DNA from: Opitutus sp.
GTDB lineage: Bacteria > Verrucomicrobiota > Verrucomicrobiae > Opitutales > Opitutaceae
Reading direction: 5' to 3'
NCBI GenBank assembly: GCA_009695065.1
Contig: SIBR01000033.1
Coordinates: 1 to 42,851 of the forward strand
Length of the DNA: 42,851 nt
Shown here: piece after piece, positions 9,695 to 38,484 of the stretch
Numbering within the stretch: the first letter of the stretch is position 1
Layout of the letters: each line of letters opens with the position of its first letter
Notes under the pieces: model-generated
Told to the model about the DNA's origin: nothing
What the model saw: the letters and a program-made list of their open reading frames with translations, nothing else
Databases searched by the model: none
Made by a program: the position numbers and the translations under genes

Positions 9695-9767
9695 GAGCTT
9701 GTAGCTATCAGCTTTGAGCTTTCGATCGATTCCGTGCTCCCAGCTCCAAGCTCTGAGCTTCGAGGGC
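9695..9767. repeat. AGCT-word repeat, copy A1
   Basis: Units of about seven bases with an AGCT core (GAGCTT, GTAGCTA, TCAGCTT, TGAGCTT) run through this stretch, ending in GCTTTCGATC. Bases 9695-9727 are an exact inverted copy of 10871-10903 (33 of 33 bases). It lies directly after the stop codon of the isomerase gene. Confidence 0.8.
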
Positions 9768-9783
9768 TTTACGCGATGTTTGC

Positions 9784-10671
9784 TCAGAGCACGAAAATCC
9801 GGTCCATCCGCTGCGCCAGGTCGCGGGCGGTGGCGACGTTTTCCGCCTGGTCGCGGGGTTGCTCGGAGATGGCCCAGCCGTTGTAGCCGGCCTGGTCCAG
9901 CGCCGCCATGACCGCTGGCCAGTTCGTGCCGCCATCCAGCAGCTTCGGGCGCGGCGGCGCCTTCGCCGCCGGGTCCACCGGCGCCGTACTGTAGTCCTTG
10001 ATATGCAGCCGCACGATGCGTTTCCCGAGGAGATTGATCCATTTCTCGGCGGCCGGACCACGCCGCCCGACATTGCCGATGTCGAAATGCCAGCCGACCC
10101 ACTCGCTGTTGATCGCGTCGAGGTAGTCGACCGCCTGCTCCGGGGCCAGGATGAAGTCGTTGCCGACATTTTCGATGGCGATTTTCACGCCGAGGTCTTT
10201 CGCGACGGGGATCGCCTTTTTGACTTCGAGGAGCGAGCGATCCCAGCACTGCTGGTAGGTGACGCCGTTGCGGGCCACCCCCGGCACGAGCAGCACGCTC
10301 GTGGCGCCGTAGGCGTGGGCGTCGTGCAAACTGTGGATGAGCCCGTCGAAGCCGAGCTGGCGCGTCGCGGCGTCGGGCGCCGAGAGGGGCTTCACCCAAT
10401 GGATGTGGCAGCACACGCTGGCGGCCTGCAGGCCGGTCTCCTTGAACGCGGCGATCACCTCGTCGCGATTCATGGCCCCCAGCGGCTCCACGCCCTCGAA
10501 GCCGGCCGCTTTCATCGCCTTGAACTGTTCGAGAACGGTGCCCTTGACGCCGATCGTCGAATGCATGATCGCCTTGCGGAGGTGACGCTTCGGGGCGGCA
10601 TGGGCGATCGGAACAAAAGCCGCCGTCGCAGCGGCGCTCGCAGAGATTTTGAGAAAGGACCGGCGGTTCAT
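9784..10671 (-). CDS. Tat-exported TIM-barrel protein, sugar phosphate isomerase/epimerase family
   Basis: The 295-residue product begins with a twin-arginine leader (MNRRSFLKISASAAATAAF, cleavage near AHAA) followed by an AP-endonuclease-2/xylose-isomerase-like TIM barrel. Metal ligands of the family are visible in order: IAIENVGNDF (Glu), VGWHFDIGN (His, Asp), VRLHIKDY (His, Asp) and WAISEQP (Glu near the C-terminus). Members convert ketoses or inositol-like substrates; the substrate here is unknown. Export outside the cytoplasm is typical of the many copies in Planctomycetota and Verrucomicrobiota. It sits between AGCT-word repeats, with gmd upstream on the same strand. Confidence 0.82.
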   Translation of the reverse strand: MNRRSFLKISASAAATAAFVPIAHAAPKRHLRKAIMHSTIGVKGTVLEQFKAMKAAGFEGVEPLGAMNRDEVIAAFKETGLQAASVCCHIHWVKPLSAPDAATRQLGFDGLIHSLHDAHAYGATSVLLVPGVARNGVTYQQCWDRSLLEVKKAIPVAKDLGVKIAIENVGNDFILAPEQAVDYLDAINSEWVGWHFDIGNVGRRGPAAEKWINLLGKRIVRLHIKDYSTAPVDPAAKAPPRPKLLDGGTNWPAVMAALDQAGYNGWAISEQPRDQAENVATARDLAQRMDRIFVL

Positions 10672-10727
10672 GCCATGATCTCTGGGCGGTTTCGCCCGCC
10701 AGTGCGAGCCCGGACTTGGCGTCGGCC

Positions 10728-10816
10728 GAAAGCTGGTAGCTCTAAAAGCCCTCGAAGCACTAAAAGCTCTGAGCAGATCGCCGAAGCAGAAATCGCCGAG
10801 CTGCGAGCTTTCGATC
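10728..10816. repeat. AGCT-word repeat, copy A2
   Basis: GAAAGCTGGTAGCTC at one end and GAGCTGCGAGCTTTCGATC at the other enclose looser units (AAAGCCC, GAAGCAC, AAAGCTC). The end motif GCTTTCGATC is shared with A1 and, inverted, with A3, which faces it 54 bases away. It lies upstream of the isomerase start. Confidence 0.7.
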
Positions 10817-10870
10817 CATGTTGATCACCGCCTTTCCGCGCTTCCGCGATCCGGTTTTATTTTCATCACT

Positions 10871-10955
10871 GATCGAAAGCTCAAAGCTGATAGCTACAAG
10901 CTCGTAGCTCATGTAAAAGCTTTGAGAGCTCGCAGCTCGCTTTTCAGCTCACCGC
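10871..10955. repeat. AGCT-word repeat, copy A3
   Basis: Starts GATCGAAAGCTC and continues in 7-bp steps (AAAGCTG, ATAGCTA, CAAGCTC, GTAGCTC), then a partly inverted second half (AAAGCTTTGAGAGCTC, GCAGCTC, TCAGCTC). The first 33 bases are the exact inverse of A1. The far end overlaps the last codons and stop of gmd, so the repeat forms the gmd 3' end. Confidence 0.8.
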
Positions 10956-11921
10956 TGCCAAATCGGCGTCGACCATCAGCTCCGCCAAGGCCTTCATCCG
11001 CGTCTTCGCTTCCCAGCCCAGATGGTTCCGGGCTTTCGTCGCGTCGCCGACGAGGAGATGGGACTCTTTGGGCCGCACAAGCCGTTCGTCGAACTTGACG
11101 TACTGCCGCCACTCTAGGCCCACTCGGCTGAAGGCCGCATCGAGGAAATCCCCGATCGAATGCGGCTCGCCCGTGGCCAGCACGTAGTCGTCGGGTTTCT
11201 CCTGCTGCAGCATCAGCGCCATCGTCTCGATATACTCCTTCGCGTAGCCCCAGTCGCGCCTCGCCTCGAGGCTGCCCAGTGTCAGCTCCTTTTGCTTCCC
11301 TATCTTGATGCGCGCCGCCGCCATGGTGATTTTCCGCGTGACGAAGTTTTCGCCGCGCCGCGGTGACTCGTGGTTGTATGCGATCCCACTGCACACGAAC
11401 AAGCCATGGGCCTCGCGATATACCCGGCACATCTGCGTCGCGAACGCCTTCGCGCAGCCGTACGGATTCACGGGATTGAAGGGTGTATCCTCGTTTTGCG
11501 GCGAGGTTTTGGGTGCACCGAAAATTTCCGAGCTCGCCGCATGGTACATCCGCACGGGGTGATCGAGATCGCGCAAGCTCTCGAGGAGGCTGAGCGTCGC
11601 CATCGCGTTTTCATGGCAGGTGACCTCGGGAATCTCGAAACTCAGGCCGACGTGACTCTGTCCCGCCAGATGATAAATCTCGGCGGGGGCGACTTTGCGC
11701 AGGAGACGCCGCAACGAGGTGGGGTCATTGAGCTCCCCGTAGTGCAACTGCAACCGCCCCTCCTGCCCCGCTGGGCCCAGCCGCAGTTGGTCGATGCGCA
11801 AGCGGTTGAACAAACTCGCACGCCGCACGAGCCCGTGCACGACATAGCCCTGCGCCAGCAAATGCTCCGTCAAATACGAACCATCCTGCCCGGTGATACC
11901 GGTGATAAACGCGGACTTCAT
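10944..11921 (-). CDS. gmd: GDP-mannose 4,6-dehydratase
   Basis: Gmd turns GDP-D-mannose into GDP-4-keto-6-deoxymannose, the precursor of fucose, rhamnose and related sugars of surface polysaccharides. The 325-residue product shows the short-chain dehydrogenase fold: NADP motif GITGQDGSY (residues 8-16), LAGQSHVGLSFE, the catalytic Ser in AASSEIFG (129-135), Tyr154 and Lys158 in NPYGCAK, and RRGENFVTRKIT, which contacts the GDP-sugar. Length fits the family. No GDP-fucose synthase (fcl) is next to it. The gene's stop codon lies inside copy A3 of the AGCT repeat. Confidence 0.93.
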   Translation of the reverse strand: MKSAFITGITGQDGSYLTEHLLAQGYVVHGLVRRASLFNRLRIDQLRLGPAGQEGRLQLHYGELNDPTSLRRLLRKVAPAEIYHLAGQSHVGLSFEIPEVTCHENAMATLSLLESLRDLDHPVRMYHAASSEIFGAPKTSPQNEDTPFNPVNPYGCAKAFATQMCRVYREAHGLFVCSGIAYNHESPRRGENFVTRKITMAAARIKIGKQKELTLGSLEARRDWGYAKEYIETMALMLQQEKPDDYVLATGEPHSIGDFLDAAFSRVGLEWRQYVKFDERLVRPKESHLLVGDATKARNHLGWEAKTRMKALAELMVDADLAAVS

Positions 11922-11955
11922 GCACCGCCGAAGCTAGGAACCGGGCATCGAATTA

Positions 11956-12056
11956 AAAGCTAATAGCGGAGCGGAACTCTCGAAGTGAGCTCCAAGCTCA
12001 AACGAGCCGCGAGCTTGTAGCTACGAGCTATGAGCTTTTAGAGCTTTGAGCGCTCG
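11956..12056. repeat. AGCT-word repeat, copy A4
   Basis: Units GAGCTCC, AAGCTCA, GAGCTTG, TAGCTAC, GAGCTAT, GAGCTTT and GAGCTTT fill the gap between gmd and the downstream end of the oxidase gene and run about 19 bases into it, including its stop. It shares GAGCTTGTAGCTA with A1. Confidence 0.75.
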
Positions 12057-13198
12057 CGCTTCAGCCGCGCGAGGCTGAACAGGCCGATGTCGTGGCGGGT
12101 TTCGCCCCGGTCCGCCAGATCGGCCAGAATCTCGCCCACGACGCTGCAGAATTTGAAGCCGTGACCCGAAAAACCGCACGCGATGCTCACCTGCGGATGG
12201 CGGGGATGGGGCGTGATGATAAAGTTCTTGTCCGGCGTGTTCGTGTACATGCAGGTCGCGCCCGTAAGGAAGCGGCCGTTCAACGCGGGGATGCGTTCCG
12301 CAATCGCCTCCCGCATCTGGGCGATCTCCGACTCGCGAATGCGGCGGTCGATCGTTTCCGGCGTGCAGACTTCCTCCGCCGGCGCCCGGTAGAACGCAAT
12401 CTTCACGCCGCCCTGGGGGCCGTCGATTGCCGGGAACCCGTAAGGGGTCGCGCCTCCATCGGTGCCCCAGATGAAAATCGGAAACCGGTCGGGGAGGAAC
12501 GGACCGATTCCGCCCACGGGATCGAACCAGTAAAGCACCTGCCGCTCGACCACCAGCGGGAGCCCGAGATCGGCCAGAATGCCCGGCGCCCAGGGGCCGG
12601 GTGAAATAATCAAGCGCACCGCCTCATACTGGCCGTGGTCCGTCGTCACCCGGACGCGGTCGGTGCCCACCGGTTCCCAGCCCAGGGCGCGTTCTTCGAA
12701 GTGCAGTTCGGCCCCGAGGCTGGCCGCGCGGTCGAGATGGGCCCGTACGGAGTCTTCGGGGCGGAGAAACCCGGCCTTGCGTTCATAGAGGGCCACCGTG
12801 TCGGCATCCGCTTGGATCGCGGGAAAGCGGCGGTGAATGTCCGCCGCTTCGAGGAGCTCGTGGGCCAGGCCGTATTCCCGGGCGCTGCGGACGCTCCCTT
12901 TGACGACGTCGGAGTCCGGCGGGCCGATCATCAACCCGCCCACCTCGCTGAGCACGGAAGCGCCGGTTTCCGCCTCGACCTGGCGCCACAGTTCGTAGGC
13001 TCGCAACAAGAGCGGAACGTAGGCGGGGTCCTCGTAATACGCCTGGCGGATGACGCGGGTTTTCCCGTGGCTCGATCCCCGGTCGTGCGGGGCGGTGAAC
13101 TGCTCGATGCCGAGGACCCGCTTGTTTCGCTTCGCCAGTTGATAAATCGCGGCGCTGCCCATGCCGCCGAGTCCGAGGACGATCGCATCGTAGGTCAT
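12038..13198 (-). CDS. solA: FAD-dependent N-methyl amino acid oxidase (sarcosine oxidase / SolA type)
   Basis: The 386-residue product (from the ATG at 13198) is a monomeric sarcosine oxidase relative. These enzymes demethylate sarcosine, N-methyltryptophan or similar amines, giving formaldehyde and hydrogen peroxide. Seen are the FAD-binding VLGLGGMGSAA (7-17), GSSHGKTRVIRQAYYEDPAY (41-60), and Cys316 in ATCMYTNTPD, the residue that carries covalent flavin in monomeric sarcosine oxidase (Cys315). SGHGFKF completes the C-terminal FAD site. A TTG start 18 bases upstream is possible but unnecessary. The C-terminal codons lie inside an AGCT repeat (A4). The substrate cannot be fixed from sequence. 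Confidence 0.85.
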   Translation of the reverse strand: MTYDAIVLGLGGMGSAAIYQLAKRNKRVLGIEQFTAPHDRGSSHGKTRVIRQAYYEDPAYVPLLLRAYELWRQVEAETGASVLSEVGGLMIGPPDSDVVKGSVRSAREYGLAHELLEAADIHRRFPAIQADADTVALYERKAGFLRPEDSVRAHLDRAASLGAELHFEERALGWEPVGTDRVRVTTDHGQYEAVRLIISPGPWAPGILADLGLPLVVERQVLYWFDPVGGIGPFLPDRFPIFIWGTDGGATPYGFPAIDGPQGGVKIAFYRAPAEEVCTPETIDRRIRESEIAQMREAIAERIPALNGRFLTGATCMYTNTPDKNFIITPHPRHPQVSIACGFSGHGFKFCSVVGEILADLADRGETRHDIGLFSLARLKRERSKL

Positions 13199-13265
13199 GA
13201 AAACGGGAAGGGGCAAAGCTCGGGTCCCTCGCCGGGGAGATCAAGCTCCGGGATCGGTGCTGAAA

Positions 13266-13835
13266 TCAGATGAGCGGCGACGCAAACTGCGCGTCGATCA
13301 GTTCGCAGAAGTGATGGATCAGGAACAGATGGGCCTCCTGCGCCGCCGCCCCGCTGTCGCCGGGCATGATGAGCTCGCACGTGGCGAGGCCGCGGGCGCG
13401 GCCGCCGCCGCGGCCGAGGAACGCGACGGATTCGAGACCGAGCTTTTTCGCCTCCTGCAGCGCCTCGATCACGTTGGCGGAATTGCCGCTGGAGGTGAGC
13501 ACCACGACGAGGTCGCCGGGTTTGGCGAGACCGGCGATCTGGCGGGCAAAGACCTGGTCGTAGCCAAAATCGTTGCCGATGCACGAGAGGAGCGAGCCGT
13601 CCGAAGAGAGCGCGATGGCCGGCAGGGAACGGCGGGGCTTCGCATAGCGCCCGACGAGCTCGGTGGCGAAATGGGCCGCCTCGGCGGCGCTGCCGCCATT
13701 GCCGCAGACGAGCAGTTTCCCGCCGCTTTGCAGCGTGGTGAGAATCATCCCGCCGGCCCGGTCGATGGCGGGTCGGATGGCCGGCAGGCCTTGGAGCGTG
13801 TGCGTGGTCTCGGCGAGCGAGGCTTCGAAGGTCAT
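13266..13835 (-). CDS. gmhA: Sedoheptulose-7-phosphate isomerase (phosphoheptose isomerase)
   Basis: GmhA makes D-glycero-D-manno-heptose 7-phosphate, the first step to the heptose of the LPS core. The 189-residue product is a single SIS domain of family length: CGNGGSAAEAAHFATELVGRY (the part 44-64 with the catalytic Glu59), ALSSDGSLLSCIGNDFGY, a phosphate-binding TSSGNSANV, and near the end AQEAHLFLIHHFCELID with the catalytic His. Its start is six bases from a long inverted repeat that fills the space to the divergent recF. Other SIS proteins such as DiaA look similar; the AEAAHFATELVGR motif fits both, so heptose function is likely, not proven. Confidence 0.85.
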   Translation of the reverse strand: MTFEASLAETTHTLQGLPAIRPAIDRAGGMILTTLQSGGKLLVCGNGGSAAEAAHFATELVGRYAKPRRSLPAIALSSDGSLLSCIGNDFGYDQVFARQIAGLAKPGDLVVVLTSSGNSANVIEALQEAKKLGLESVAFLGRGGGRARGLATCELIMPGDSGAAAQEAHLFLIHHFCELIDAQFASPLI

Positions 13836-13840
13836 ACGAA

Positions 13841-13950
13841 AAAGTAGCGGGTAGCGAGTAGCGGGTAGCGAGTAGAAAATTGGCCGGGCAGGCAGCCAGG
13901 AGTGAGAGTTGAAACATGCTCGCTACCCGCTACTCGCTACCCACTACTTT
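13841..13950. repeat. Long inverted repeat of GTAGCGR words (element B) between gmhA and recF
   Basis: The left arm (13841-13872) is a tandem of a 7-bp word alternating GTAGCGG and GTAGCGA. The right arm (13919-13950) is its inverse, with one mismatch and a 46-base spacer. The element takes up nearly the whole 123-bp divergent intergenic region, so it must overlap the promoters or leaders of both genes. Confidence 0.9.
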
Positions 13951-13958
13951 CAACCGTC

Positions 13959-15059
13959 ATGCGCCTGCGCAAACTCACGGTCCGGCATTTTCGCAATGTG
14001 GGATTTGCCGCGCTCGAATTTTCCGGGCGGCAGCAGTTCCTCGTCGGCGCCAACGGGCAGGGAAAGACCAACCTCCTCGAAGCGGCGGGCTTTATCTCGG
14101 CGCTGCGCTCGTTTCGCACCCCGGATCAAAAGCTCGTGATCGGCCACGGACAGCAATGCGCCGCCATCGCCTGCCACGTCGAGCAGGCCCGGATGGGGGA
14201 GACGCACGTCACAGTGAAGATCCGCCACGACGGCAAGGAGGTCTGGTGCGACCAGACGCGCGTCACAAAACTCGGCGACTACCTCGGGCAGTTTCCCACC
14301 GTGGTGTTTTCCTCGTCGGACCTGCAACTCGTGCGGGGCTCGCCGGCTGGCCGGCGCCGGTGGCTGGATCTCACGCTGGCCTCGGCGGCGCCGGAGTATT
14401 TCCGGGCGCTACAAACCTTTACCCGCGGGCTCGCGGCGCGCAACGCCCTGCTGAAATCCGGCCGGCCCGCGGACGCCGAGTTGGAGGCCTTCGAAGCGCC
14501 GCTGGCCCCGGCCGCGGCGGAGCTGATCGCGTTGCGCGGCGCCGGCGTGGCGGCGCTGGCGGAATCGGTGCGGCAGGCCTACGCGCAGCTCTGCGACGAC
14601 GCGGAACCGGCCGGGCTCACCTACGAACCCAACTTTCCCGACGCCTCCGCCGAGTCGCTCCTCGCGCGGCTGGCGAGCGGCCGGGCCCGCGATATCCAGT
14701 TTCGCACGACACTGGTGGGGCCGCATCGCGACGACGTGCACTTTGCGGTGAAGCACACCGCCGCGAAAAATTTCGCGTCGGAAGGCCAGCAGCGTTCGTT
14801 CGTGCTGGCGCTGCGGCTGGCGCAGGCGGCCTGGCTGAACCAAAAGACCGGTGTGCGGCCGGTCGTGCTCGCGGACGATGTGCTGGGCGAACTCGACCCG
14901 GCGCGGCGCCGGAAGTTCTGGGCGGCGATCGACCCGGAGTCGCAGGTCATCGCGACGGGGACGCATCTGCCGGACGATCAATTGGGCACGTGGCAGGTGT
15001 TTGAGGTGGCGGACGGCGTTTTTGGCGAAAAGGCGGCCTCGATGAACCCGGGCGCGTGA
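13959..15059 (+). CDS. recF: DNA replication and repair protein RecF
   Basis: RecF loads RecA at single-strand gaps together with RecO and RecR. The 366-residue product has Walker A GANGQGKT (30-37), the family start [16 protein letters not shown], the [15 protein letters not shown] region, LVGPHRDD, the ABC signature [17 protein letters not shown] and Walker [14 protein letters not shown]. The ATG at 13959 gives this N-terminus; an upstream in-frame start at 13902 would lie inside the inverted repeat. Its stop overlaps the GTG start of the following permease by four bases (GTGA), so the two are probably translated together. recF is not beside dnaA or dnaN here. Confidence 0.95.
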
Positions 15060-15787
15060 ACCTTTCCCCTTCACACCTGCTGCTCGCGATCCTGGCGGCC
15101 TTTCTCGTGGGCGTGGCCAAGACGGGGATCGGCGGCCTCGGCATGCTGGCGGTGGTGCTTTTCGCGCAAATCATGCCGGCGAAGCAGGCGACCGGGATGG
15201 TGCTGCCGCTGCTGTGCTTCGGCGATCTCTTCGCATATGCATCGTACCGGCAGCACGCGAAATGGAGCGCCTGCTGGAAATTGTTTCCATGGACGGCGGC
15301 GGGCGTGGTGGCCGGCTATTTCGCGCTGGGGCGGATGAGCGAACACCAGACGCGGACGCTGATCGGCGGCATCGTGCTCGGCCTCGTCGTGCTGCATTTT
15401 GCGCGCCGCCGTTTCTACGGGCATGAGACGGACCACGGCGCCTGGTTTGCGCCGGCAATCGGCGTCCTGGCGGGGTTCACGACCCTGGTGGCGAACGCGG
15501 CGGGGCCCTTCATGGCGATCTATTTTCTCGCGATGCGCCTGCCGAAAATGGACTTCGTCGGCACGGGCGCGGTGTTCTTCCTTTTGCTGAATCTCTTCAA
15601 GTTGCCGTTCATGGTGAACCTCGGACTGGTGACGAAGGAGAGCTTCACGCTGAACCTCCTGCTGGCGCCCGCGGTGGTGGTCGGGGGGCTGATCGGCCGG
15701 ACGATCCTGAAGCGGATCGAACAACGGGTCTTCGAGAATCTCGCGCTGGCGATGAGCGCCGTGGCGGGTTTGAAACTCTTGTTATGA
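15056..15787 (+). CDS. TauE/SafE-family membrane permease
   Basis: The 243-residue product is hydrophobic throughout, with about seven or eight predicted membrane spans. It has the family features: a short N-terminal repeat ending [20 protein letters not shown], a [19 protein letters not shown] region, and the second-half counterpart [18 protein letters not shown]. Family members export sulfite, sulfoacetate or other organosulfur anions; the substrate here is not known. The GTG start sits in the four-base overlap with recF, so expression is tied to recF although no functional link is evident. Confidence 0.85.
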
Positions 15788-16523: not shown

Positions 16524-16733
16524 GTGCTCGCGTTCCGTCCACGACTGCTCGACTGCCTGCGCGACTATTCCCGGGAAAAATTTGTCAGGGATGTGCTGGC
16601 GGGGTTGACGGTTTGTGTCGTCGCCCTCCCGCTGGCCATCGGGCTCGGCATTGCCTCCGGGGCCACGCCGGCCGCCGGGATAACCACCGCCATCGTCGTC
16701 GGTTTTTTAGTTTCGGCGCTCGGCGGTCCGGCG
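16524..16733 (+). pseudogene. SulP-family anion transporter, N-terminal fragment
   Basis: From the GTG at 16524 about 70 codons match the start of SulP transporters: the cytoplasmic LLDCLRDYSREKFVRDVLAG, then the first membrane span VCVVALPLAIGLGIASG and ATPAAGITTAIVVGFLVSALGG. A real SulP has 400-700 residues. After GG the frame turns into unrelated PAGAPAGGACDASG and stops at 16772. At the same point the resemblance of the opposite strand to a DUF1275 gene begins, so two genes were joined tail to front by a deletion or rearrangement. Confidence 0.75.
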
Positions 16734-16735
16734 GG

Positions 16736-17408
16736 TGCGCCAGCCGGTGGGGCGTGCGATGCTTCAGGATAGTGTAAACGACGCCCGTCACCCCGGTGAT
16801 GGCAGCGGGAATGACGAGGCAGTCGGTGCCGAGATGAGAGAAGCGGTAACCCCCGAGCACGCCTCCGACAAAGAAGCCCGTGAGCAGAACGGCGTAAAGA
16901 CGCATGGGGCGCCAGTCCACCGACTCCCGGCGGGCCGCCAGGCCGAGGGCGATGCCGAGATCCGTGATCATGCCCGTCATGTGCGTGGAGCGGATGACGG
17001 CGCCGCTGTAACTGGTCGCCATCGCATTTTGCAGGCCGCAGGCCATGGTCGCGAGGTAGTCGGCCATGACCGAGCCGTGGCGGAGAAAGTGCGTTGCGGC
17101 GATCAGCAGGAGCGATTCACAGGTCAGCGCCACGCCGTAGCGCCGGCCGGCCTTGAGCCCGCTTTGCCGGATGATCAGTCCGCTGAGCACGCAGCCGATG
17201 AAAAGAAAACAACGATCAGCAGGGCGTGGCCGGCGAGCTGCCAGTCGGCCCGCGCGATCTCCATGCCCACGTTCGTGACCGAGCCGGAAAGGTGCGAGAG
17301 CGCCTGGTGATGGAGGCCCAGAAAGCCGACGGCATTCACCGCCCCCGCGAACGCTGCGAGCACCCCGCCGCCCAGCAGGATCCAGCGGGGAGTCGGTTTT
17401 GTGAGCAT
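16736..17408 (-). pseudogene. DUF1275 (YoaK-type) membrane protein, frameshifted
   Basis: From the ATG at 17408 the first frame reads ILLGGGVLAAFAGAVNAVGF and LSHLSGSVTNVGMEIARADW, typical of DUF1275, and runs into a stop at 17175. The rest (FLFIGCVLSGLIIRQSG, MACGLQNAMATSYSGAVIRS, THMTGMITDLGIALG, GYRFSHLGTDCLVIPAA) continues in the next frame. A one-base loss in a TTTTCTTTT run near 17205-17212 explains both. The C-terminus reaches YTILKHR, the usual end, just before the SulP junction, and no native stop is left there. Six or seven spans would be expected in an intact protein. Function of the family is unknown. A sequencing error in the homopolymer is possible. Confidence 0.75.
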
Positions 17409-17572
17409 GCCCGATGGCTGGTGGAGGGTCCCCGTTCATGCGGGGTTCCGGGCCGTGGACAACGCTTTCCGGCGGGAGGGCAGCAGCCCGAGAGGCGGCA
17501 TGGCCCGTTTCTTTCGTGCCGAGAGGGACAGCCCGCTCCGCGGCCCAGAGCGCGGTTATCCCCAATCCGCGG

Positions 17573-17591
17573 TGTCAACTAATAGTTGACA
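17573..17591. promoter_or_regulatory. 19-bp palindrome, possible operator
   Basis: The stretch 17409-17828 holds no gene. It contains this perfect palindrome, TGTCAACTA-A-TAGTTGACA, and the long inverted repeat at 17676. The same palindrome with two or three changed central bases forms the core of the aspS terminator at 32270. Here no T-run follows on either strand, so a protein-binding site is more likely than a terminator. It lies 165 bp upstream of the DUF1275 start. Confidence 0.4.
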
Positions 17592-17675
17592 ACGTAGATT
17601 GGGGCGTGGGGCGCTGCGGGAGTTGGCCGAGAGAGGCTGCAGGGAAGGGGTAAATCTTCCCCGTGGTTGTTCGTG

Positions 17676-17760
17676 CTCGTGCTCGTGATCGTAATCGTGA
17701 TCGCGGTTCGGACCCAGAAGCGGGATCGTTCAGGATCACGATTGCGATCACGAGCACGAG
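17676..17760. repeat. Long inverted repeat of CGTGMT words (element D) beyond the histidine kinase stop
   Basis: The left arm (17676-17702) steps in 6 bases: CGTGCT, CGTGAT, CGTAAT, CGTGAT. The right arm (17734-17760) is its inverse with one mismatch in 27 bases, across a 31-base spacer. A further CGTGCT unit precedes the left arm. It is 68 bases beyond the stop of the kinase gene, in the position of a 3' untranslated region. Confidence 0.88.
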
Positions 17761-17828: not shown

Positions 17829-20525
17829 TCAACCGAGGACGGCTTTTAAGACCTTGCCCAGATCCGTGACGCGGTACGGTTTCGTGAGATAGCCGCAGAA
17901 GCCCTTGTCGAGAAACTGGTGGGCCATCTCGTCATTGTCGTAGCCACTGGCCACGATCGCGCGGACTTCGGGATCGAGCTGTTTCAGCTCGGTGAAGCAT
18001 TCCTCGCCGCCCATCCCGCCGACGACCGTCAGATCCATGATCACCGCGTCGTAGGGCCGGCCGATGTTCTGGTAGCGCTTGTACAGCGCGATCGCCTCGT
18101 CGCCGTTCTTCGCGAGGTCAAACTTGTAGTCGAGGCTCTGCAGCATCGTCGCGGTCAGCGCCGAGATTTTCGGGTCGTCGTCCATGAACAGCACGCGACC
18201 GGTGCCAAAACGCAGGGAGGCGGCGCGGCGCGCCTGCACCTCGACTGGCTTGTCGGCCTTCGGCAGATACGCCGTGAACGCCGTCCCCACGCCGACCTGG
18301 GTGTCGAGCGCGATCTGCCCGCCATGTTTGCGGACGATCGAGAGCACGGTCGCAAGGCCGAGGCCGGTGCCGTGCTTTTTCGTGGTGAAAAACGGATCGA
18401 AGATCTTCTCGACGTGCTCGGGCTTGATGCCGCTGCCATTGTCGCGAACCTCGAACACGACGTGGTCGCCCGCCGCAAGGGACGGCACCTGGTTATCCCC
18501 CAGGGTCACATTGCTGGCGCGAATCTGCAGCCGCGGCTTGTGCGGCGGCGGCGGCATGGCCTGCAGCGCGTTGACAATGAGATTCTGGAACACCTGCAGG
18601 ATTTGCGCGCGGTCGACGAGCACCGGCTCGGTGCCGGCGGGGACCTCGAGGACGATCTCCGCCGTGGAAGCGGCCGCGGCGATCTTGATCGAATCCTCCA
18701 GAATTTCCCGGGCGGTGGTGACCGTCTGCGTGGCGGTGCCGCCCTTGGCGAACGCGAGTAGTTGTTTCGTGAGCCCCTTGGCGGTCATGCAGGCCTTCTC
18801 CGCGTCGCCCAGCGCGGTGTAGTCGCGATTGTCCTTCGCGAGAGAAACCGCGCCCAGAATCGTAGTCAGGAGATTGTTGAAATCGTGGGCGATGCCGCCG
18901 GCGAGGAGGCCGAGCGCCTCGAAGCGGTTGGCCTTCACCAGTTCCTCCGGCGTCAGGGTCATTTCCTCGGGGTTGCGAAAGACGATCACGACGCCGCGGG
19001 CCTTGCCATCGGGTCCGTAGGCTGCGCGCGCCGTCCAGACGATCGGCAGCGGCGGTTCGCCCTCGATCGCGGGTGCGAGGGCGTCGGTGCCGATCAGCGG
19101 CAACGGCTGGTCGGCGGACAGCACCCGCTCGACCGGGTCGTCGCCCGGGCGGTTGCTCTGGCGATTGACGAGGCGAAACACGTCGCCCACCGGCTGGCCG
19201 CGCGCCTGTGCCGCCGGCACGCGCAGGATACGGAGAGCGGCGGCATTGAGGAAAACGATTTTGCCGCGGGCATCGGTGACGACGACGGCCTCGGCCAGCG
19301 TGCCGAAGGCTTCCTCGGCCAAGGCGGTGGGCAGGGCGCCGTCGGGTTGCAGGGCGTCGGCCGGCAGGGGGCAGGCGAAGCCGACCACGCGGGTGAGCTC
19401 GCGTTTGCGCGTGACGCTGCGGTGGGCGCCGAACAACACGTGGACGGGACGCCCGTCCTTGGCGCGAAGCAGCAGCGGTTCGACGAAGCTATTCTGGCCG
19501 GGAACGCGCGCCAGCAACCAGGCGGCGACGCCCGCCGAGGCCTCCTCGGGCGGGAGCGCGGCGGCGAACGACGCCACCGCGGGAGCGAGTTCGCCCGCGT
19601 CGTAGCCGAGGAGTTTTTCCCAGGCGGGGGAGAACCAGAAAACGTCGCCGGTGAAATCGAGTTCGAAGGCCGCGAGCGGGCCGTTGCCGCTGAGGTCCTG
19701 CAGCCGCGCCTCGTTGGCAAGCGAGGTTTCCTCCAGTTCCTTGCGCTCGGTGATGTCGAGATGAAGGCCGACCACGCGTTCGAGCTGGCCGGCGGAGTTC
19801 GTGACCTGCACGCCGATAAACTGAATCCACACCCAGTGACCCCGCTGATGCTTCATCCGGAACTCGACGCTGAACGGGCGCGAGGCGGCACCGCCGGCGG
19901 CCAGCTTGCGGCTGATCTTGTCGGGTGACGCGCCGGAGTCGTCGGGATGGATCAGCGTGTGCCAGGTCTCGATCGTGTCGGGCAGTTCGGCGGGGACGTA
20001 GCCGAGGATTTTTTTCCAGGCGGGGCTGAAATGCACTCCGCCGGTGAGCAGATTAAGATCGAAGAAGCCAGCGGCGCCCTGGTCGGCCAGCAGGCCATAA
20101 CCCGCCGACGTGGCCGCCGTCGGACCGCCCGCGGCGGGCGCGATCACGGGAAATTGTACGGTGGCGATATAACCGTCGCGGTCGCCGCCCAGCGGCTCAA
20201 GCAGGACGCGCATCTCGCGGGTCGGTCCCGTGCCGGGCTGCAGGGCGAGCGAGGCTGGCTTGTGCAACGCGCTGACGAGGAGCCCGTCCCACTGCGCCGC
20301 GAGAAACTCCGGATCGCTGGAGGTCACCTCGAACTCGAACAAGGTGACGAAGGCAGCGCCGTTCAATCCGCCCGCCCGCGCGCGCCACAGTTCCCGCGCG
20401 GTGGCATTGCTCGCCGTGATCCGGCCGGACGAATCGAGCACGAGCACGGCACAGGCAGAACCGCGTCCGGCGGACGCAGTGCCCGGCGATTCGCCGCCGG
20501 CCGGGGTTAAATCAGATTCGCTCAC
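17829..20525 (-). CDS. PAS-domain hybrid histidine kinase with C-terminal receiver
   Basis: The 898-residue product is soluble, with no membrane span. In order it has an N-terminal PAS-like domain (about 25-125), PAS at 150-265 (FFDLNLLTGGVHFSPAWKKI; ending DITERKELEE), PAS at 280-385, PAS at 405-520, a HisKA-type dimerisation region with His547 in LAGGIAHDFNN, an HATPase domain (QNLIVNALQAM, DNGSGI at 696-700, GTGLGLATV) and a receiver with Asp783/784, phospho-acceptor Asp831 in VIMDLTV and Lys882. It would sense a cytoplasmic cue and pass phosphate inside itself and then to an unknown partner; no separate regulator is nearby. Its GTG start overlaps the hemH stop by four bases (GTGA), so the two are translated together. 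Confidence 0.92.
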   Translation of the reverse strand: MSESDLTPAGGESPGTASAGRGSACAVLVLDSSGRITASNATARELWRARAGGLNGAAFVTLFEFEVTSSDPEFLAAQWDGLLVSALHKPASLALQPGTGPTREMRVLLEPLGGDRDGYIATVQFPVIAPAAGGPTAATSAGYGLLADQGAAGFFDLNLLTGGVHFSPAWKKILGYVPAELPDTIETWHTLIHPDDSGASPDKISRKLAAGGAASRPFSVEFRMKHQRGHWVWIQFIGVQVTNSAGQLERVVGLHLDITERKELEETSLANEARLQDLSGNGPLAAFELDFTGDVFWFSPAWEKLLGYDAGELAPAVASFAAALPPEEASAGVAAWLLARVPGQNSFVEPLLLRAKDGRPVHVLFGAHRSVTRKRELTRVVGFACPLPADALQPDGALPTALAEEAFGTLAEAVVVTDARGKIVFLNAAALRILRVPAAQARGQPVGDVFRLVNRQSNRPGDDPVERVLSADQPLPLIGTDALAPAIEGEPPLPIVWTARAAYGPDGKARGVVIVFRNPEEMTLTPEELVKANRFEALGLLAGGIAHDFNNLLTTILGAVSLAKDNRDYTALGDAEKACMTAKGLTKQLLAFAKGGTATQTVTTAREILEDSIKIAAAASTAEIVLEVPAGTEPVLVDRAQILQVFQNLIVNALQAMPPPPHKPRLQIRASNVTLGDNQVPSLAAGDHVVFEVRDNGSGIKPEHVEKIFDPFFTTKKHGTGLGLATVLSIVRKHGGQIALDTQVGVGTAFTAYLPKADKPVEVQARRAASLRFGTGRVLFMDDDPKISALTATMLQSLDYKFDLAKNGDEAIALYKRYQNIGRPYDAVIMDLTVVGGMGGEECFTELKQLDPEVRAIVASGYDNDEMAHQFLDKGFCGYLTKPYRVTDLGKVLKAVLG

Positions 20526-32444: not shown

Positions 32445-32792
<348 letters not shown>

Positions 32793-32815
32793 TCGACGGG
32801 CAACGTCTCAACTTT

Positions 32816-32852: not shown

Positions 32853-32970
32853 GTCGCCGGCACCAGAGGCTGACCGCGGTCGGATGGGGCGGGTGGACAA
32901 CAATCGTCAAGAAAAGCCGCAACCGGCTCCGGAGCGGCATGAAGTTTGCTTAGAGAAGGGCGCGTCCACC

Positions 32971-34476
32971 ATGAACATTATCCGACTCAAGCCGTTCCGG
33001 GCTCTTTTCGCCGCCTGCCTGATCCTCGCGGCGGCCTTGTCCGCGTCAGCCCAGCCTGCCGCCCCCGCGGCCCCCACGCCACCCGCCGCAACGCTTGAGC
33101 AGCGGATCGCCGGACTGGAAGCTTACCTTGGGAATGGCGACCCCTCGGCCGCGTTGAAAGACCCGAAAGGCGCCATTTCCGCCGGGCTGACCACGGCCGC
33201 CGTGGGCGTGGCGGGTCCCGGGCATAATGCCTGGATGATGACCTGTGCGGCCCTAGTCCTGTTCATGACGCTGCCCGGTCTCGCGCTATTTTATGGCGGC
33301 TTGGTCCGCACGAAAAACGTGCTCTCCGTGATGGCCCAGTGCTTTGGCATCGCCGGGTTGGTCACCATTTTGTGGTGGGCGGTGGGCTACAGCCTCGTCT
33401 ATGGGAAAAGTTTCAACAGCCCCTTTCTCGGCGGCTCGGAATTTTTCTTTCTGCGGGGCGTCGAGAGTGCGCCGAACACGGACTACGCCTACTGGGTTTC
33501 GCACAACGTCTTCTCGATGTATCAACTCATGTTCGCGATTATCACGCCGGCGCTGATCATCGGCGCGATCGCGGAGCGCATGAAATTTTCCGCGATTCTG
33601 GTGTTCGTGACCGTCTGGATGCTGGTCGTCTACTTTCCGCTCGCGCACATGGTGTGGGGCGTGACGGGCCTGATGAACGGGGTCTGGAATGCCGGCGCGG
33701 CGATCAAGGCGATCGACTTCGCCGGGGGAACGGTGGTGCACATGTCCTCGGGGTGGTCGGCGTTGATCCTCTGCCTGATTCTTGGGCCGCGACTGGGCCA
33801 CGGCAAAACGCCGATGCCGCCGCACAGTCTCGTACTTTGTATGATCGGCACCGGCATGCTTTGGGTGGGCTGGTACGGGTTCAACGCGGGTTCCGCGGTC
33901 GCCGCGGATGGCATTGCGGCAAACGCCTTCACCACGACGACGCTGGCCGCGGCGGTCGCCTCGTTCACGTGGGGAGCGCTGGAATACCTGATTCGCCGCA
34001 AGGCGAGCGTGCTCGGGTTTTGTTCGGGCGCCGTGGGCGGCCTGGTGGTCGTCACCCCGGCGTGTGGCTTCATCACGGCCAGCGCGGCCATTGCGCTGGG
34101 CGTGCTCGCCGGCGCGGTGCCGTTCTTCGCCTGCACCAAACTCAAGCCGTTCCTCGGCTATGACGATGCGCTCGACACCTTCGGCGTCCACGCCGTGGGC
34201 GGCACCTTGGGCGCGTTCCTCACGGGCGTTTTCGCCACGGGAGCCGCGAATGTCAACTTGAACACGAACCTGAAGGATCTCCTAGGCAAATCGCTCTGGC
34301 AGGAACAACTCAAGGCCATCGGACTGACGGTCGCGCTTTCGGTCGTGGCCACGGTTGTCATCGCCCTGGTGCTCAAGGCGACGATGGGGCTGCGGCCCAC
34401 GGTCGAGACGGAGCAGGAGGGCCTGGACCTCAGCGAGCACGGCGAGGAAGGCTATATTTTCGAACCGAAGTCCTGA
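32971..34476 (+). CDS. amtB: Ammonium transporter
   Basis: AmtB channels ammonium across the inner membrane and is closed by a PII protein. The 501-residue product starts with a cleavable signal (RLKPFRALFAACLILAAALSASA), followed by an unusual 60-residue Pro/Ala-rich periplasmic stretch, then eleven membrane spans. Family motifs: LPGLALFYGGLVRTKNVL, DFAGGTVVHMSSGWSAL with the first pore His, GMLWVGWYGFNAGSA, and DTFGVHAVGGTLGAFLTG with the second pore His. The ATG at 32971 follows AGAGAAGGG. The second PII gene begins 21 bp after its stop, the usual amtB-glnK arrangement. Confidence 0.95.
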   Translation: MNIIRLKPFRALFAACLILAAALSASAQPAAPAAPTPPAATLEQRIAGLEAYLGNGDPSAALKDPKGAISAGLTTAAVGVAGPGHNAWMMTCAALVLFMTLPGLALFYGGLVRTKNVLSVMAQCFGIAGLVTILWWAVGYSLVYGKSFNSPFLGGSEFFFLRGVESAPNTDYAYWVSHNVFSMYQLMFAIITPALIIGAIAERMKFSAILVFVTVWMLVVYFPLAHMVWGVTGLMNGVWNAGAAIKAIDFAGGTVVHMSSGWSALILCLILGPRLGHGKTPMPPHSLVLCMIGTGMLWVGWYGFNAGSAVAADGIAANAFTTTTLAAAVASFTWGALEYLIRRKASVLGFCSGAVGGLVVVTPACGFITASAAIALGVLAGAVPFFACTKLKPFLGYDDALDTFGVHAVGGTLGAFLTGVFATGAANVNLNTNLKDLLGKSLWQEQLKAIGLTVALSVVATVVIALVLKATMGLRPTVETEQEGLDLSEHGEEGYIFEPKS

Positions 34477-34836
<360 letters not shown>

Positions 34837-34886
34837 TTCCTCCATCCGTCGCGGCCCCGGCTTTGATCAACCGGTGACGCGGGTCG

Positions 34887-34906
34887 GGCCTGGAGAAACT
34901 CAGGCC
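34887..34906 (+). terminator. Possible terminator of amtB-glnK
   Basis: GGCCTG / CAGGCC (34887-34892 with 34901-34906) with an 8-base loop is followed by TTCTTCTTG on the plus strand. The stem is short and the T-run is broken. It overlaps the last codons of the converging thrS, so it must serve both genes or only the plus-strand operon. Confidence 0.4.
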
Positions 34907-36813
34907 TTCTTCTTGTCGGGCAGGGAGCGGGTCGCGACTTCGGTCTTGAGCCGGGCCGCGAACGCATCGGCCGGCATCACGCCTTCGTCGCCCCGGGCGC
35001 GGGAGCGCACGGAAACGCTGTTGGCTTCGGCTTCCTTCTGGCCGATGACGAGCGTGTAAGGGACCTTCTCCAGTTCGGCGCGGCGAATCTTGGCGCCGAG
35101 CTTGTCGCTGTGCTCGTCGAGGACCGTGCGGAAACCGTCCGCCCTGAGGCGGGCGTGCAGCGCGCGGGCGTAGTCGATGACCTTCTCGCTGATCGGCACG
35201 AGGCGCACCTGCTCGGGCGCGAGCCAGACGGGAAAGTCGCCGCCAAAGTGCTCGATGAGCACCCCGCAGAAACGCTCCATCGAGCCGAACGGCGCGCGGT
35301 GAATCATCACCGGCCGGTGCGGCTGGTTGTCGGGTCCGATGTAGGACAGGTCGAAACGCACGGGCAGGTTGTAGTCCACCTGCACGGTGCCGAGCTGCCA
35401 CTCCCGACCGATCACGTCCTTGATCACGAAATCGATTTTCGGCCCATAGAACGCCGCTTCGCCCGGCTCCTCGGTGAAAGGCACGCCGAGCGTTTGCGCG
35501 GCGGCGCGGCAGGCCGCCTCGGCCTTGTCCCAGTGGGCTGCTTCGCCGGTGTATTTGTTGGAATCCGGATCGCGCAGGCCCACCCGCACCCGGTAGTCCT
35601 GCATGCCGAGGGTGGTGAGGATGATCTTCACGAGGGCGAGACAGCCGAGAACCTCGGCCGCGACCTGTTCCTCCGTACAGAACAGATGGGCATCATCCTG
35701 GGTGAAAGCCCTGACGCGCGTCATCCCAGTCAGCTCGCCGCTCTGTTCCCAGCGGTAGACCGTGCCGAATTCCGCTAGCCGGACCGGCAGATCGCGGTAG
35801 GAGTGGGGTTGCGAGGCGAAGATCTTGATGTGATGCGGGCAGTTCATCGGCTTCAGCATGAAGCCGTCGAGCAACTGGTCATCGGGCCGGACGCGATCGG
35901 CGGTGATCGTCTCCCGGCCGGTGCGCGCGTTGACCTTGTCGCGCAGATGGCCGGAGACCGCCTCGAGGCGGGCGAATACGTCGCCACAGGGGCAGTTTTC
36001 GCCGAGCACCTTCGCCAGCGATTCGCTTTCCAGCACGGGCGAAAACTGGGATTCCTTGTAGTAGGGGAAATGGCCCGAAGTCTTGTAGAGCTCGAGCTTG
36101 CCGATATGCGGCGTGAACACCTGCGAATAGCCCTGCTTGCGGAGTTCTTCGCTGATGAAGGTCTGCAACTCCTGGCGGATGACCGCCCCGTTGGGCGTCC
36201 AAAGGATCAGCCCCTGGCCGACCTCGTCGTCGATGTGGAAGAGTTTCAGTTCGCGGCCGAGTTTGCGGTGGTCGCGCAACTTAGCCTGCTCGAGTTGGGT
36301 GAGGTAGTTGGTCAGCTCGTCCTTCGACGGGAAGGCGGTGCCGTAGATGCGCTGGAGCTGCTTGTTTTTCTCGTCGCCGCGGTGATAGGCGCCGGCGATC
36401 GAGAGGAGCTTGAACGCCTTCAGCTTCGAGGAATAGCGGACGTGGGTGCCGGCGCAGAGGTCGATGAATTCGCCGTTTTGATAGAAAGAGATTTTCTCGT
36501 CGGCGGGGATGTCCGCGAGGCGACCCAGCTTGAAGCGCTCCTGGCCGATCTTCCTGATGATTTCGACGGCTTCGTCGCGCGAGACTTCCTTGCGGTAGAA
36601 CGGCTGGTTTTCGTCCGCGATTTTCTTCATCTCGGCCTCGAGGCGGACGAGGTCGTCGGTGGTGAACTTGTGGTCGAGGTCGATGTCGTAGTAAAAGCCG
36701 GTATCCGTCGGCGGCCCGATATCGAGCTTCGCCTCAGGAAAAAGGCGAAGGACGGCGGTCGCGAGGATGTGCGACGCGGAGTGACGGAGTTCTTCGAGCG
36801 GTGTCATGGCCAT
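34900..36813 (-). CDS. thrS: Threonyl-tRNA synthetase, lacking the TGS domain
   Basis: ThrRS charges tRNA-Thr. The 637-residue product starts directly at the editing domain (HSASH at 11-15, LCAGTH at 119-124), without the roughly 60-residue TGS domain found at the front of most bacterial ThrRS. The class II core (WTPNGAVIRQEL, KPMNCPHH with the zinc Cys325, FGTVYRWEQSGELTGMTRVR, motif 3 HRAPFGSMERF) and the C-terminal anticodon domain are complete. Between TSGHFPYY and FMLKPMNCP there is an extra segment of about 48 residues (258-315) including ENCPCGD. No further in-frame upstream ATG was seen that could supply a TGS. cysS lies 195 bp upstream on the same strand. Confidence 0.94.
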   Translation of the reverse strand: MAMTPLEELRHSASHILATAVLRLFPEAKLDIGPPTDTGFYYDIDLDHKFTTDDLVRLEAEMKKIADENQPFYRKEVSRDEAVEIIRKIGQERFKLGRLADIPADEKISFYQNGEFIDLCAGTHVRYSSKLKAFKLLSIAGAYHRGDEKNKQLQRIYGTAFPSKDELTNYLTQLEQAKLRDHRKLGRELKLFHIDDEVGQGLILWTPNGAVIRQELQTFISEELRKQGYSQVFTPHIGKLELYKTSGHFPYYKESQFSPVLESESLAKVLGENCPCGDVFARLEAVSGHLRDKVNARTGRETITADRVRPDDQLLDGFMLKPMNCPHHIKIFASQPHSYRDLPVRLAEFGTVYRWEQSGELTGMTRVRAFTQDDAHLFCTEEQVAAEVLGCLALVKIILTTLGMQDYRVRVGLRDPDSNKYTGEAAHWDKAEAACRAAAQTLGVPFTEEPGEAAFYGPKIDFVIKDVIGREWQLGTVQVDYNLPVRFDLSYIGPDNQPHRPVMIHRAPFGSMERFCGVLIEHFGGDFPVWLAPEQVRLVPISEKVIDYARALHARLRADGFRTVLDEHSDKLGAKIRRAELEKVPYTLVIGQKEAEANSVSVRSRARGDEGVMPADAFAARLKTEVATRSLPDKKKA

Positions 36814-37008
36814 GAGGTGTGGTGATTGTGGTCCGGCTTACGATTGCAGGACCTGAACCGGCAAGACCGCCGCGAAACGGAGCGGGTGTCAACGCGCGGG
36901 TGCTACCGTCCCGAGCCGGGAGCTCCGGCAGCCTGCAGGGGACCACGGATGTCCCGGGTGAGGTGCAGGGCGCAGACCTGGCCCTCCGCAGGGCACGAGG
37001 CATTTGGC

Positions 37009-38382
37009 CTACTTTTTCAGCGGTTCGAGTTTGTATTCGGTTTTGCTGTCGAGCATCGACCAGCCGGCGGCGGCGAGTTCCTTGCGGAAGGCGTCGGCGG
37101 TGGCGAAATCCTTCGCCTGCTTCGCGGCCCAGCGTTTTTCGGCGAGGGCGGAGATTTCGGCTGGCGCCGAAATCTTGGTCTGGCCTGCGGCCAGGTCGAG
37201 CCCGAGGGCGAACATGGCGCGGTCGAACCATGCCGCATTGATGTCGGCGGGCGTGGTCGTGTTAATCGTCGTGAAGAGCGAACCTAGGGCACCGGGGGTA
37301 TTGAGATCGTCCTGAAGCGCGGCGACGAGAAGTGTGAAGACGCTGAAATTTCCGCCCGCCGCGGGGAGCGCGGCGCGGATCGATCGCAGGGCCTTGAGCG
37401 CGCTCTCCGCGGCGTGCAGCGAATCGAGCATGAAGTTGAGCTGCTTCCGCGGATGGCCCATCAGCAGCGCGTAGCGAATCGCCATCGGGGAAAAGCCCTT
37501 CGCGACGAGCTCGTCCAGGGTATAGAGATTCCCGAGACTCTTGCTCATCTTTTTGCCGTCCACGAGCAGGTGCTCGCTGTGATACCAGTGATGCGAAAAC
37601 AGCGTGCCGTTGCAGCACTCGCTCTGGGCGATCTCGTTTTCGTGGTGCGGGAAGAGCAGGTCGACCCCGCCGGTGTGCAGGTCGATCGTCTCGCCGAGGT
37701 GCTTCTTGCTCATCGCGCTGCACTCGATGTGCCAGCCCGGGCGGCCGCGGCCCCACGGGCTGTCCCACGCATTGGCGCCGTCGTCGGGCTTGTGCGCCTT
37801 CCAGAGGGCGAAGTCGGTGGCGTCCTCCTTCTCGTCGGCGTCGGCGGCCTGCGATTTGCCGGCGAGCGCGGAGCCGACCTGGAGTTCACGCTCCTTCACC
37901 CGCGATAGTTTGCCGTAGTCGTCGAACGAGCTGACCTTGAAATAGACGGAGCCGTCGGGGGCGCGGTAGGCGTTCCCCTTTTTCATGAGCGCATCGATCA
38001 TGTCGACCTGCTCGCGGATGTGGCCGGTGGCGGTGGGCTCGACGTGCGGGGGGAGGCAGTTGAGCGCGGCGCAGTCCGCGTGGAATTTTTCGGTCGACTG
38101 CCTGGTCACGTCGGCGAGCAGGCGGCCTTCGTCCCGCGCCCGCCGGATGGTCTTGTCGTCGACGTCGGTGAGGTTGCGGACATGTTTCACCTTGTCCTTC
38201 CCGAATTCGAGCTCGAGCAGCCGGCGGATCACATCGTTGACCACGAAGGTCCGGAAATTCCCGATGTGCGCCGGCGCATAGACCGTCGGACCGCAGTTGT
38301 AGAAGCGGTAGACGCCGTCCGGGTGGCAGGGCTTGAGGTCGCGCAGCTCGCGGGAAAGGGAATCGTGGAGGCGGATGGGCAT
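37009..38382 (-). CDS. cysS: Cysteinyl-tRNA synthetase
   Basis: CysRS charges tRNA-Cys. The 457-residue class I enzyme shows the zinc Cys and HIGH-type signature in FYNCGPTVYAPAHIGNFR, VRNLTDVDDKTIRRA, the second zinc ligands in GWHIECSAMSKKHLG and FPHHENEIAQSE, and KMSKSLGN for the second signature. The helical C-terminal anticodon-binding part is present (LAEKRWAAKQAKDFATADAFRKEL). Its start is 13 bp from a long inverted repeat (element C) shared with the divergent hemB. Confidence 0.95.
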   Translation of the reverse strand: MPIRLHDSLSRELRDLKPCHPDGVYRFYNCGPTVYAPAHIGNFRTFVVNDVIRRLLELEFGKDKVKHVRNLTDVDDKTIRRARDEGRLLADVTRQSTEKFHADCAALNCLPPHVEPTATGHIREQVDMIDALMKKGNAYRAPDGSVYFKVSSFDDYGKLSRVKERELQVGSALAGKSQAADADEKEDATDFALWKAHKPDDGANAWDSPWGRGRPGWHIECSAMSKKHLGETIDLHTGGVDLLFPHHENEIAQSECCNGTLFSHHWYHSEHLLVDGKKMSKSLGNLYTLDELVAKGFSPMAIRYALLMGHPRKQLNFMLDSLHAAESALKALRSIRAALPAAGGNFSVFTLLVAALQDDLNTPGALGSLFTTINTTTPADINAAWFDRAMFALGLDLAAGQTKISAPAEISALAEKRWAAKQAKDFATADAFRKELAAAGWSMLDSKTEYKLEPLKK

Positions 38383-38395
38383 GAGTCGGATTTGA

Positions 38396-38484
38396 AACCG
38401 CTAATCTTCGCTAATTGGCGCTAATCAAGTGAAGGCGGCCACATTTTTTTTAAGATTAGCGTGAATTAGCGAAGATTAGCGGTT
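38396..38484. repeat. Long inverted repeat of CGCTAATYWK words (element C) between cysS and hemB
   Basis: The left arm (38396-38426) reads in 10-bp steps CGCTAATCTT, CGCTAATTGG, CGCTAATC. The right arm (38454-38484) is its inverse with two adjacent mismatches in 31 bases and a 27-base spacer holding a run of eight Ts. It fills most of the 121-bp divergent region, as element B does between gmhA and recF. Confidence 0.9.

Follow-up and report, generated by a model that had tools for sequence, protein, structure and literature searches.

What are the opposed arrays of short words that stand between genes in Opitutus sp., and is each pair one long hairpin or two arrays facing each other? On contig SIBR01000033.1 (assembly GCA_009695065.1), the 42,851 nt of which are referred to here as the window, the gap between the divergent starts of recF and a SIS-domain gene is occupied entirely by two opposed arrays of the heptamer GTAGCGR (element B), and further gaps hold inverted pairs of other words (elements C and D) or arrays of AGCTNNN (set A). 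On balance, and with modest confidence, we favour a reading in which these are intergenic word arrays placed at gene borders, where opposed arrays mimic a hairpin and would act on the leader of the downstream gene via a putative factor.

Element B and its polarity

The three best inverted repeats of the window are B, C and D (scores 28, 23 and 23, compared with a best score of 15 among 30 dinucleotide shuffles), and the arm lengths, mismatches and spacers given for them in an earlier note on this DNA were recovered exactly. As that note had also stated, the elements are tandems of short words, with arm periods of 7 (B), 10 (C) and 6 (D); set A consists of AGCTNNN arrays in three gaps. In each of B, C and D at least one arm exceeds 500 letter shuffles of itself in periodicity, the lower P of the two arms being kept per element. 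Element B (13841–13950) consists of (GTAGCGR)n at 13841–13875 and an opposed (YCGCTAC)n at 13919–13950. Its 32-nt arms (13841–13872 and 13919–13950, both given on the plus strand) differ at one position (31/32) around a 46-nt spacer, and lie 5 nt from the start codon of the SIS-domain gene, which we take to be gmhA, and 8 nt from that of recF, respectively. The arm on the recF side carries the spacer edge CATGCTCGC, so the polarity of this element faces the SIS gene.

That polarity was defined from a larger set. A census of B yielded 72 unique inverted elements, of which 70 were scored and two were too low, and 62 polar elements were then defined by their edge motifs alone, with loci added after the census. 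The two inner edges differ, one arm ending in GAGCAT and the other being preceded by TTTCTA. An ATG with a long frame is present on the TTTCTA side only in 46 of the 62, on both sides in 7, on neither in 9 and on the wrong side only in none, where the 46 include orthologues and are not 46 independent events, and where the elements were collected with word patterns. An earlier count over 70 elements gave agreement with the polarity in 33 of 33 one-sided cases. The distance from arm to ATG is 4–14 nt in 47 of 53 cases, and the opposite end lies within ∼30 nt of the stop codon of a co-directional frame in 56 of 62, a count inflated by the TAG that the word carries. Read in the orientation of the gene, the layout is an upstream stop, (GTAGCGR)n ending in GAGCAT, a spacer of 18–90 nt, TTTCTA, (YCGCTAC)n and, mostly 4–14 nt further on, the ATG. 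Many elements sit between co-directional frames, and divergent starts are also occupied.

Single, non-hairpin GTAGCGR arrays obey the same border rule at stop codons (13/25 versus 4/55, P = 2e-5, with array-made TAG stops excluded first); 31 of the 56 left-hand stops beside such arrays fall within the array itself, because the word carries TAG in every frame. B arrays sit at gene borders, each word reading away from its gene, and their polarity towards the start codon is fixed. Such strict polarity makes a role in ordinary gene expression directly testable.

Arms of B as separate arrays

The two arms of a B element pair with each other at 0.785, compared with 0.798 (standard deviation 0.006) for arms exchanged between the 62 elements, and the value for own arms is lower than 99.6% of 1000 permutations. 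In a smaller set of 49 elements the corresponding values are 0.786 and 0.789, matches at 27 or more of 28 positions occurring in 2 of 49 own pairs and in 68 of 2352 exchanged pairs, so that near-perfect arms like those of the window are roughly as frequent in foreign pairs as in own pairs. No genome dialect was detected among the 62 elements (P = 0.14 and 0.43). An apparent excess of matching in own arms (0.872 versus 0.793 in exchanged arms) was discarded, because the best palindrome had been picked for own arms only, and it vanished when the register was fixed by the motifs. As own arms match no better than foreign arms at variable positions, they do not behave as copies of each other or as selected pairs; their complementarity arises because both arrays lie near one consensus word in opposite orientation. 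The arms of B behave as separate arrays, independent of each other. The slight deficit of own arms may reflect, we infer, a loss of long perfect palindromes.

These values bear on the suggestion in the earlier note that such structures are products of a template-switching polymerase, one arm being made as an inverted copy of the other. The arms in the window are nearly perfect (31/32, 29/31 and 26/27), as expected from copying, and a 36-nt piece is shared in inverted orientation (97% complementary) by positions 9692–9727 of array A1 and 10871–10906 of arrays A2, which lie 1143 nt apart in separate gaps. For B, however, copying is contradicted, since own arms are no more alike than foreign arms, the near-perfect tail included, and we regard template switching as very improbable.

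A hairpin selected in the messenger, whether as an intercistronic attenuator, a terminator or an RNase III site, would be a different outcome. RNA hairpins had been among the possibilities raised for this DNA, and they are possible in so far as B, C and D are predicted to fold well below shuffles on both strands (z −7.9 to −12.5), many elements stand between frames of one direction, where transcription could run through them, and the polarity of B tracks the downstream gene. Selection for pairing is, however, not apparent at the positions of B that vary. The arms do not covary, own arms pairing slightly worse than exchanged ones, and wobble pairs are not preferred, with 155 A.C mismatches and 107 G.U pairs in gene orientation compared with 115 and 80 in exchanged arms. 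Spacers of 18–90 nt are, moreover, unlike those of intrinsic terminators, and elements are held at divergent starts as well; we consider a selected RNA hairpin unlikely. Two narrower candidates were rejected along the way. An intrinsic terminator was set aside on the spacer lengths, the start codon mostly 4–14 nt downstream and the occupied divergent gaps; many B arms end in TTT. The excess of A.C over G.U (P = 1e-7) was considered as a mark of pairing on the opposite strand, and was dropped as exchanged arms give a similar ratio. A search of the whole window against Rfam at the gathering score returned two tRNAs only, with no RNA family matched at A–D.

Recurrence, other words and short-range change

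The inverted design of B is present in 39 of 120 family genomes (searched around genome G017), with 1–24 strict matches per positive genome when overlapping matches are counted apart, whereas the reversed and the scrambled word each gave no match in the same 120 genomes. The C pattern was found in 8 of 40 genomes and the A pattern (AGCT) in 9 of 40, with 34 overlapping matches in G004. The reversed control for A, TCGANNN, matched 15 of 40 genomes, more than A itself, so A does not stand out by its exact letters. Fourfold TCGANNN is frequent (17 overlapping matches each in G033 and G011, 14 in G094 and 9 in G002, among others) and is one more type of array with period 7, its core being palindromic. 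The strict D design was found in 0 of 40 genomes, and the D tandem alone in one of 40 with two matches, one of which appears coding by eye. B and C are repeat families and A is an array type that recurs in genomes; D is at most a candidate family. The earlier note had taken loci that are unrepeated and missing from relatives to be chance or assembly artefacts, a verdict that B, C and A escape and that may still apply to D.

The same borders recur as well. Homologues of the window RecF are present in 16 of 18 and 107 of 120 genomes, and B words lie upstream of recF at 16 of the 41 relatives' loci read (L119–L122, L126, L134, L139–L142, L146, L150, L157–L159 and L162; the count leaves out L131 and L132, cut or unread, and L135 and L136, which are second pieces), several of them with one arm decayed. 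HemB homologues are present in 38 of 40 genomes, and C is found at the hemB border at 7 of 29 readable loci (L219, L229, L231, L232, L236, L237 and L238; L226, which is cut, is left out). B and C are found at these borders in genomes that were assembled independently, which speaks against an artefact of assembly, and the earlier view that common descent of the sequences is unlikely is not supported within a set, where B and C recur at orthologous places. Words from two families can coexist in a single gap, as upstream of recF at L126 (1231–1500), where a B array stands at one side and a C-like array or tail of 10-bp words at the other.

Beyond the family, the tandem word GTAGCGRGTAGCGRGTAGCG occurs in at least 118 stretches of the species collection, from many phyla. 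Among the matches listed (118, sorted to phylum by record title), the inverted form is present in 20 of 37 Verrucomicrobiota stretches versus 6 of 81 others. The presence of the same word in distant phyla may be due to a factor that is old and widely conserved, to transfer, or to a word prone to slippage. The B word was also seen in 14 stretches of viral contigs, two of which, L300 and L302, were included in the census of B elements. Many of the named records used in these comparisons are metagenome bins.

The design is not confined to the words of the window. Close relatives, sampled over 388 kb, yielded 24 strong inverted repeats, of which 10 have an arm with tandem periodicity; three of the 10 are B or AGCT words and seven are others (ACCGGAR, AAGCGGA, AACACGGATG, CACACGGAA and GGCACAA). 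In 400 kb from 20 family genomes the proportion is 2 of 17, and no strong inverted repeat was found in 50 kb of Escherichia coli K-12, a small control. Period-7 arrays number 14 in the close set, two in the broad set and none in E. coli, and none remained after triplet shuffling; the close set includes contigs that were found via words of A, B or C, so its density should not be taken as representative. This search of relatives, which had been proposed in the earlier note, bears out its idea of one design with several words and of a general process that makes or keeps it. The order stop, array, array, ATG was seen with other words at L250 (8 nt from the stop and 7 nt from the ATG), L255 (12 and 14), L316 (1 and 7) and L245 (17 and 20), and at the further loci L266 (18 and 26), L195 (9 and 10) and L201 (1 and 10). 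C and several other words follow the layout of B in part of the cases, where the frames are clear.

Several of these arrays form groups of their own. Inverted arrays of a 9–10-bp word of CAC type (CACRGAG, AACACGGATG, CACACGGAA and GACACGAAA) are located at L245 5884–5972, L255 19300–19412, L266 420–518, L251 4816–5033 and L318 12607–12692; three of the five have the outer edge AACC as in C, with which they may form one superfamily. Genome G004 carries inverted arrays of the heptamer ACCGGAR in several gaps (L246 4616–4751, L249 17600–17714 and L250 18781–18932) beside AGCTNNN arrays.

Within the window, C (38396–38484) has 31-nt arms at 38396–38426 and 38454–38484 with two mismatches (29/31) and a 27-nt spacer, each arm holding three words of CGCTAAT plus 3 nt. 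It lies in a divergent gap, 13 nt from a gene of cysteinyl-tRNA-synthetase type, presumably cysS, and 19 nt from hemB. Element D (17676–17760; arms of 27 nt at 17676–17702 and 17734–17760, one mismatch, 26/27, spacer 31 nt) is built of the hexamer CGTGMT and lies between a hybrid histidine kinase gene (17829–20525, minus strand) and a DUF1275 gene (minus strand), flush with neither. The AGCTNNN words form array A1 (9692–9761), downstream of a TIM-barrel gene (9784–10671, minus strand); arrays A2 (10727–10941), between a GDP-mannose-dehydratase-like gene (10944–11921, minus strand) and the start of the TIM-barrel gene; and array A3 (11957–12056), which overlaps the stop codon of an FAD-oxidoreductase gene (12038–13216, minus strand) and extends towards the start of the dehydratase-like gene. 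Gene borders were set by simple open-frame rules. Pfam assigns the neighbours to RecF/SMC N-terminal (recF), SIS_2, class I tRNA synthetase (beside C) and ALAD (hemB), and those of A and D to a TIM-barrel protein with a twin-arginine (TAT) signal, GDP-mannose dehydratase, FAD oxidoreductase, hybrid histidine kinase and DUF1275. Elsewhere in the window, a low-scoring quasi-palindrome with 22-nt arms, CCCCAATCCGCGGTGTCAACTA / TAGTTGACAACGTAGATTGGGG, is found at 17560–17604 and an imperfect tandem of TCCTCG/TCGTCGTCATCC with periods of 6, 12 and 24 bp at 40266–40337, and positions 16530–16780 read, by eye, like the truncated start of a SulP-type transporter.

Over short evolutionary distances, L120 and L139 are identical across the B element, and the array on the SIS-gene side holds four words in each of L120, L139, L140 and L142. 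B arrays behave neither like a hypervariable tandem repeat nor like a pair of strongly constrained arms. Among relatives, both polarities occur in the divergent gap upstream of recF, where both are permitted because a start codon lies on either side. In a tree computed without L146 and L134, L158 has one polarity and is sister to L159 and L162, which have the opposite one (support 100/99). The spacer of L121 fits the reverse complement of that of L157 more closely than 300 shuffles or 36 spacers of other places do; this match covers just 10 letters with a gap of 2, and is the only clear case among five inverted. That of L150 with L158 is weaker (0.037 of shuffles), and the spacer of L162 matches others better without inversion, partly via array words left in the extracted spacer. 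These data are suggestive of occasional spacer inversion at gmhA–recF, and fresh arrays in the opposite orientation may be an alternative. Of the recombination sites that had been proposed for these elements, it is this difference in recF-gap polarity that fits, and it is suggestive only.

A rival reading is that the arrays are neutral slippage microsatellites, akin to variable-number tandem repeats, that survive only in gaps and have no function. Heptamer arrays, of which the close set has 14 in 388 kb as against none in triplet shuffles, outnumber every other simple class there and have been described in print; the word GTAGCGR is found in plain tandem in many phyla; and in close relatives the arms change at about the same rate as the spacers. 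Neutral slippage is opposed by the polarity towards the start codon (46 to 0), by the recurrent spacer edges GAGCAT and TTTCTA, by the constant four-word array in L120, L139, L140 and L142, and by recurrence at orthologous borders. We take it seriously and place it on the unlikely side.

Under the reading of border-placed arrays that we favour, the arrays would originate through slippage and through the copying of pieces of array from one gap to another. Each word would be a recognition unit for a conserved nucleic-acid-binding factor, probably acting on the leader or 5′ end of the downstream gene, and words would be held near one consensus because that factor recognises each of them. Arrays of the same word at both borders of a gap would then be mutually inverted and so assume the look of a long hairpin, which would be tolerated and not selected. 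Several observations weigh against this reading. The protein or RNA partner is putative, and single GTAGCGR arrays do not follow the border rule at start codons (9/38 versus 7/42, P = 0.58). In the layout survey, several rows are unclear or lack the layout (a stop with no clear start, or neither), and D shows neither stop nor start. The elements are missing from most loci (25 of 41 at recF and 22 of 29 at hemB), and the short-range constraint on words is weak, L140 and L142 differing at 2/37 and 5/35 arm positions and at 2/41 spacer positions, and L120 and L140 at 1, 5 and 5 positions. The spacer of L122 matches that of L141 better without inversion (22 versus 15). Finally, the 36-nt A1/A2 piece means that copying also occurs, and the independence of arms is established for B. 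If the reading is correct, many long inverted repeats called hairpins in genome scans would be two independent border arrays. A broader version, which we offer tentatively and hold to be improbable, is that in bacteria of this family lineage-specific words mark gene edges in general as outward-reading arrays and are recognised by a conserved factor within the leader of the gene that follows; the word would be a dialect, the layout the signal, and hairpins two marks meeting in one gap.

Relation to known repeats

Tandem heptamers are familiar from filamentous cyanobacteria as the STRR (short tandemly repeated repetitive) sequences. Among the matches listed, no description of the B or C families was found in the open text of PubMed Central, with figures and supplements outside that scope. 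The comparisons below draw on parts of the papers cited.

In those parts, Di Nocera et al. (2013; PMC3733652) describe Opitutus terrae as rich in GTAG-tagged repetitive extragenic palindromes (REPs), the inverted dimers of which are often 20–100 bp apart. Each unit is a tagged stem-loop with a stem of 5–13 bp, and most lie downstream of genes, in gaps between co-directional or convergent neighbours. B shares with them the intergenic position, the inverted pairs and a word that contains GTAG, and might on that basis be a miniature transposon of the REP or bacterial interspersed mosaic element (BIME) type, moved by REP-associated tyrosine transposases (RAYTs) of the GTAG superfamily; Y1_Tnp genes are indeed present in 28 of 30 genomes. 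In contrast to REPs as described there, the arms of B are tandem heptamers that have no stem of their own and are predicted to pair with each other, no unpaired GTAG tag stands beside a short-loop stem of 5–13 bp, and the spacers differ between places. Genomes that lack the strict B design, such as G024 and G021, also carry Y1_Tnp, and classical-looking GTAG REP pairs occur separately (e.g. L316 343–398). A REP/RAYT origin is, in our estimate, quite remote. Near 30 Y1_Tnp loci (90 kb, part of the matches), 0 clusters of B double words were found versus 1.4 expected from 6 in 388 kb, too few to weigh. GTAG stem-loops in the same genomes differ in look from B; head-to-head GTAGGAGCNTGCTTGCANGCGAT pairs at L257 5889–5958 and L316 343–398 resemble GTAG REP dimers and lie in genomes of the same family.

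Closer likenesses are found among heptamer arrays. The TAACTGA repeats of Beggiatoaceae (MacGregor 2015; PMC4679880) are, as far as the portion consulted describes them, oriented heptamers that mostly lie just upstream of a start codon, and B resembles them as an intergenic oriented heptamer common to distant phyla; one of the 170 TAACTGA sets is inverted, whereas the inverted pair is the very design of B. Of the GGGNATC heptamers that Rehm et al. (2015; PMC4692102) describe in Xanthomonas and Nostoc, those near an open reading frame (ORF) are, in the sections used here, mostly located 0–50 bp before it on the non-coding strand, or 0–50 bp past its stop codon on the coding strand. GGGNATC repeats are G-rich, form quadruplexes in vitro, are under-represented between divergent ORFs and are generally untied to mobile elements. 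B has the same period and intergenic position, and its arms fall under the same border-and-strand rule; it departs from GGGNATC, as reported there, in having two opposed arrays per gap, recurrent spacer edges and a presence in divergent gaps. A period-7 tandem in gaps is shared by A and B and not by C (period 10) or D (period 6). By reading, no word of the window elements holds GGG, as required for quadruplex G runs, and GTAGCGG forms it only across a word border. In so far as these partial sources allow, the border-placed heptamer arrays of Xanthomonas, Nostoc and Beggiatoaceae are the nearest published kind to B, and, if the favoured reading is true, the heptamer arrays of these bacteria and of the Opitutaceae may obey one placement rule despite their differing words.

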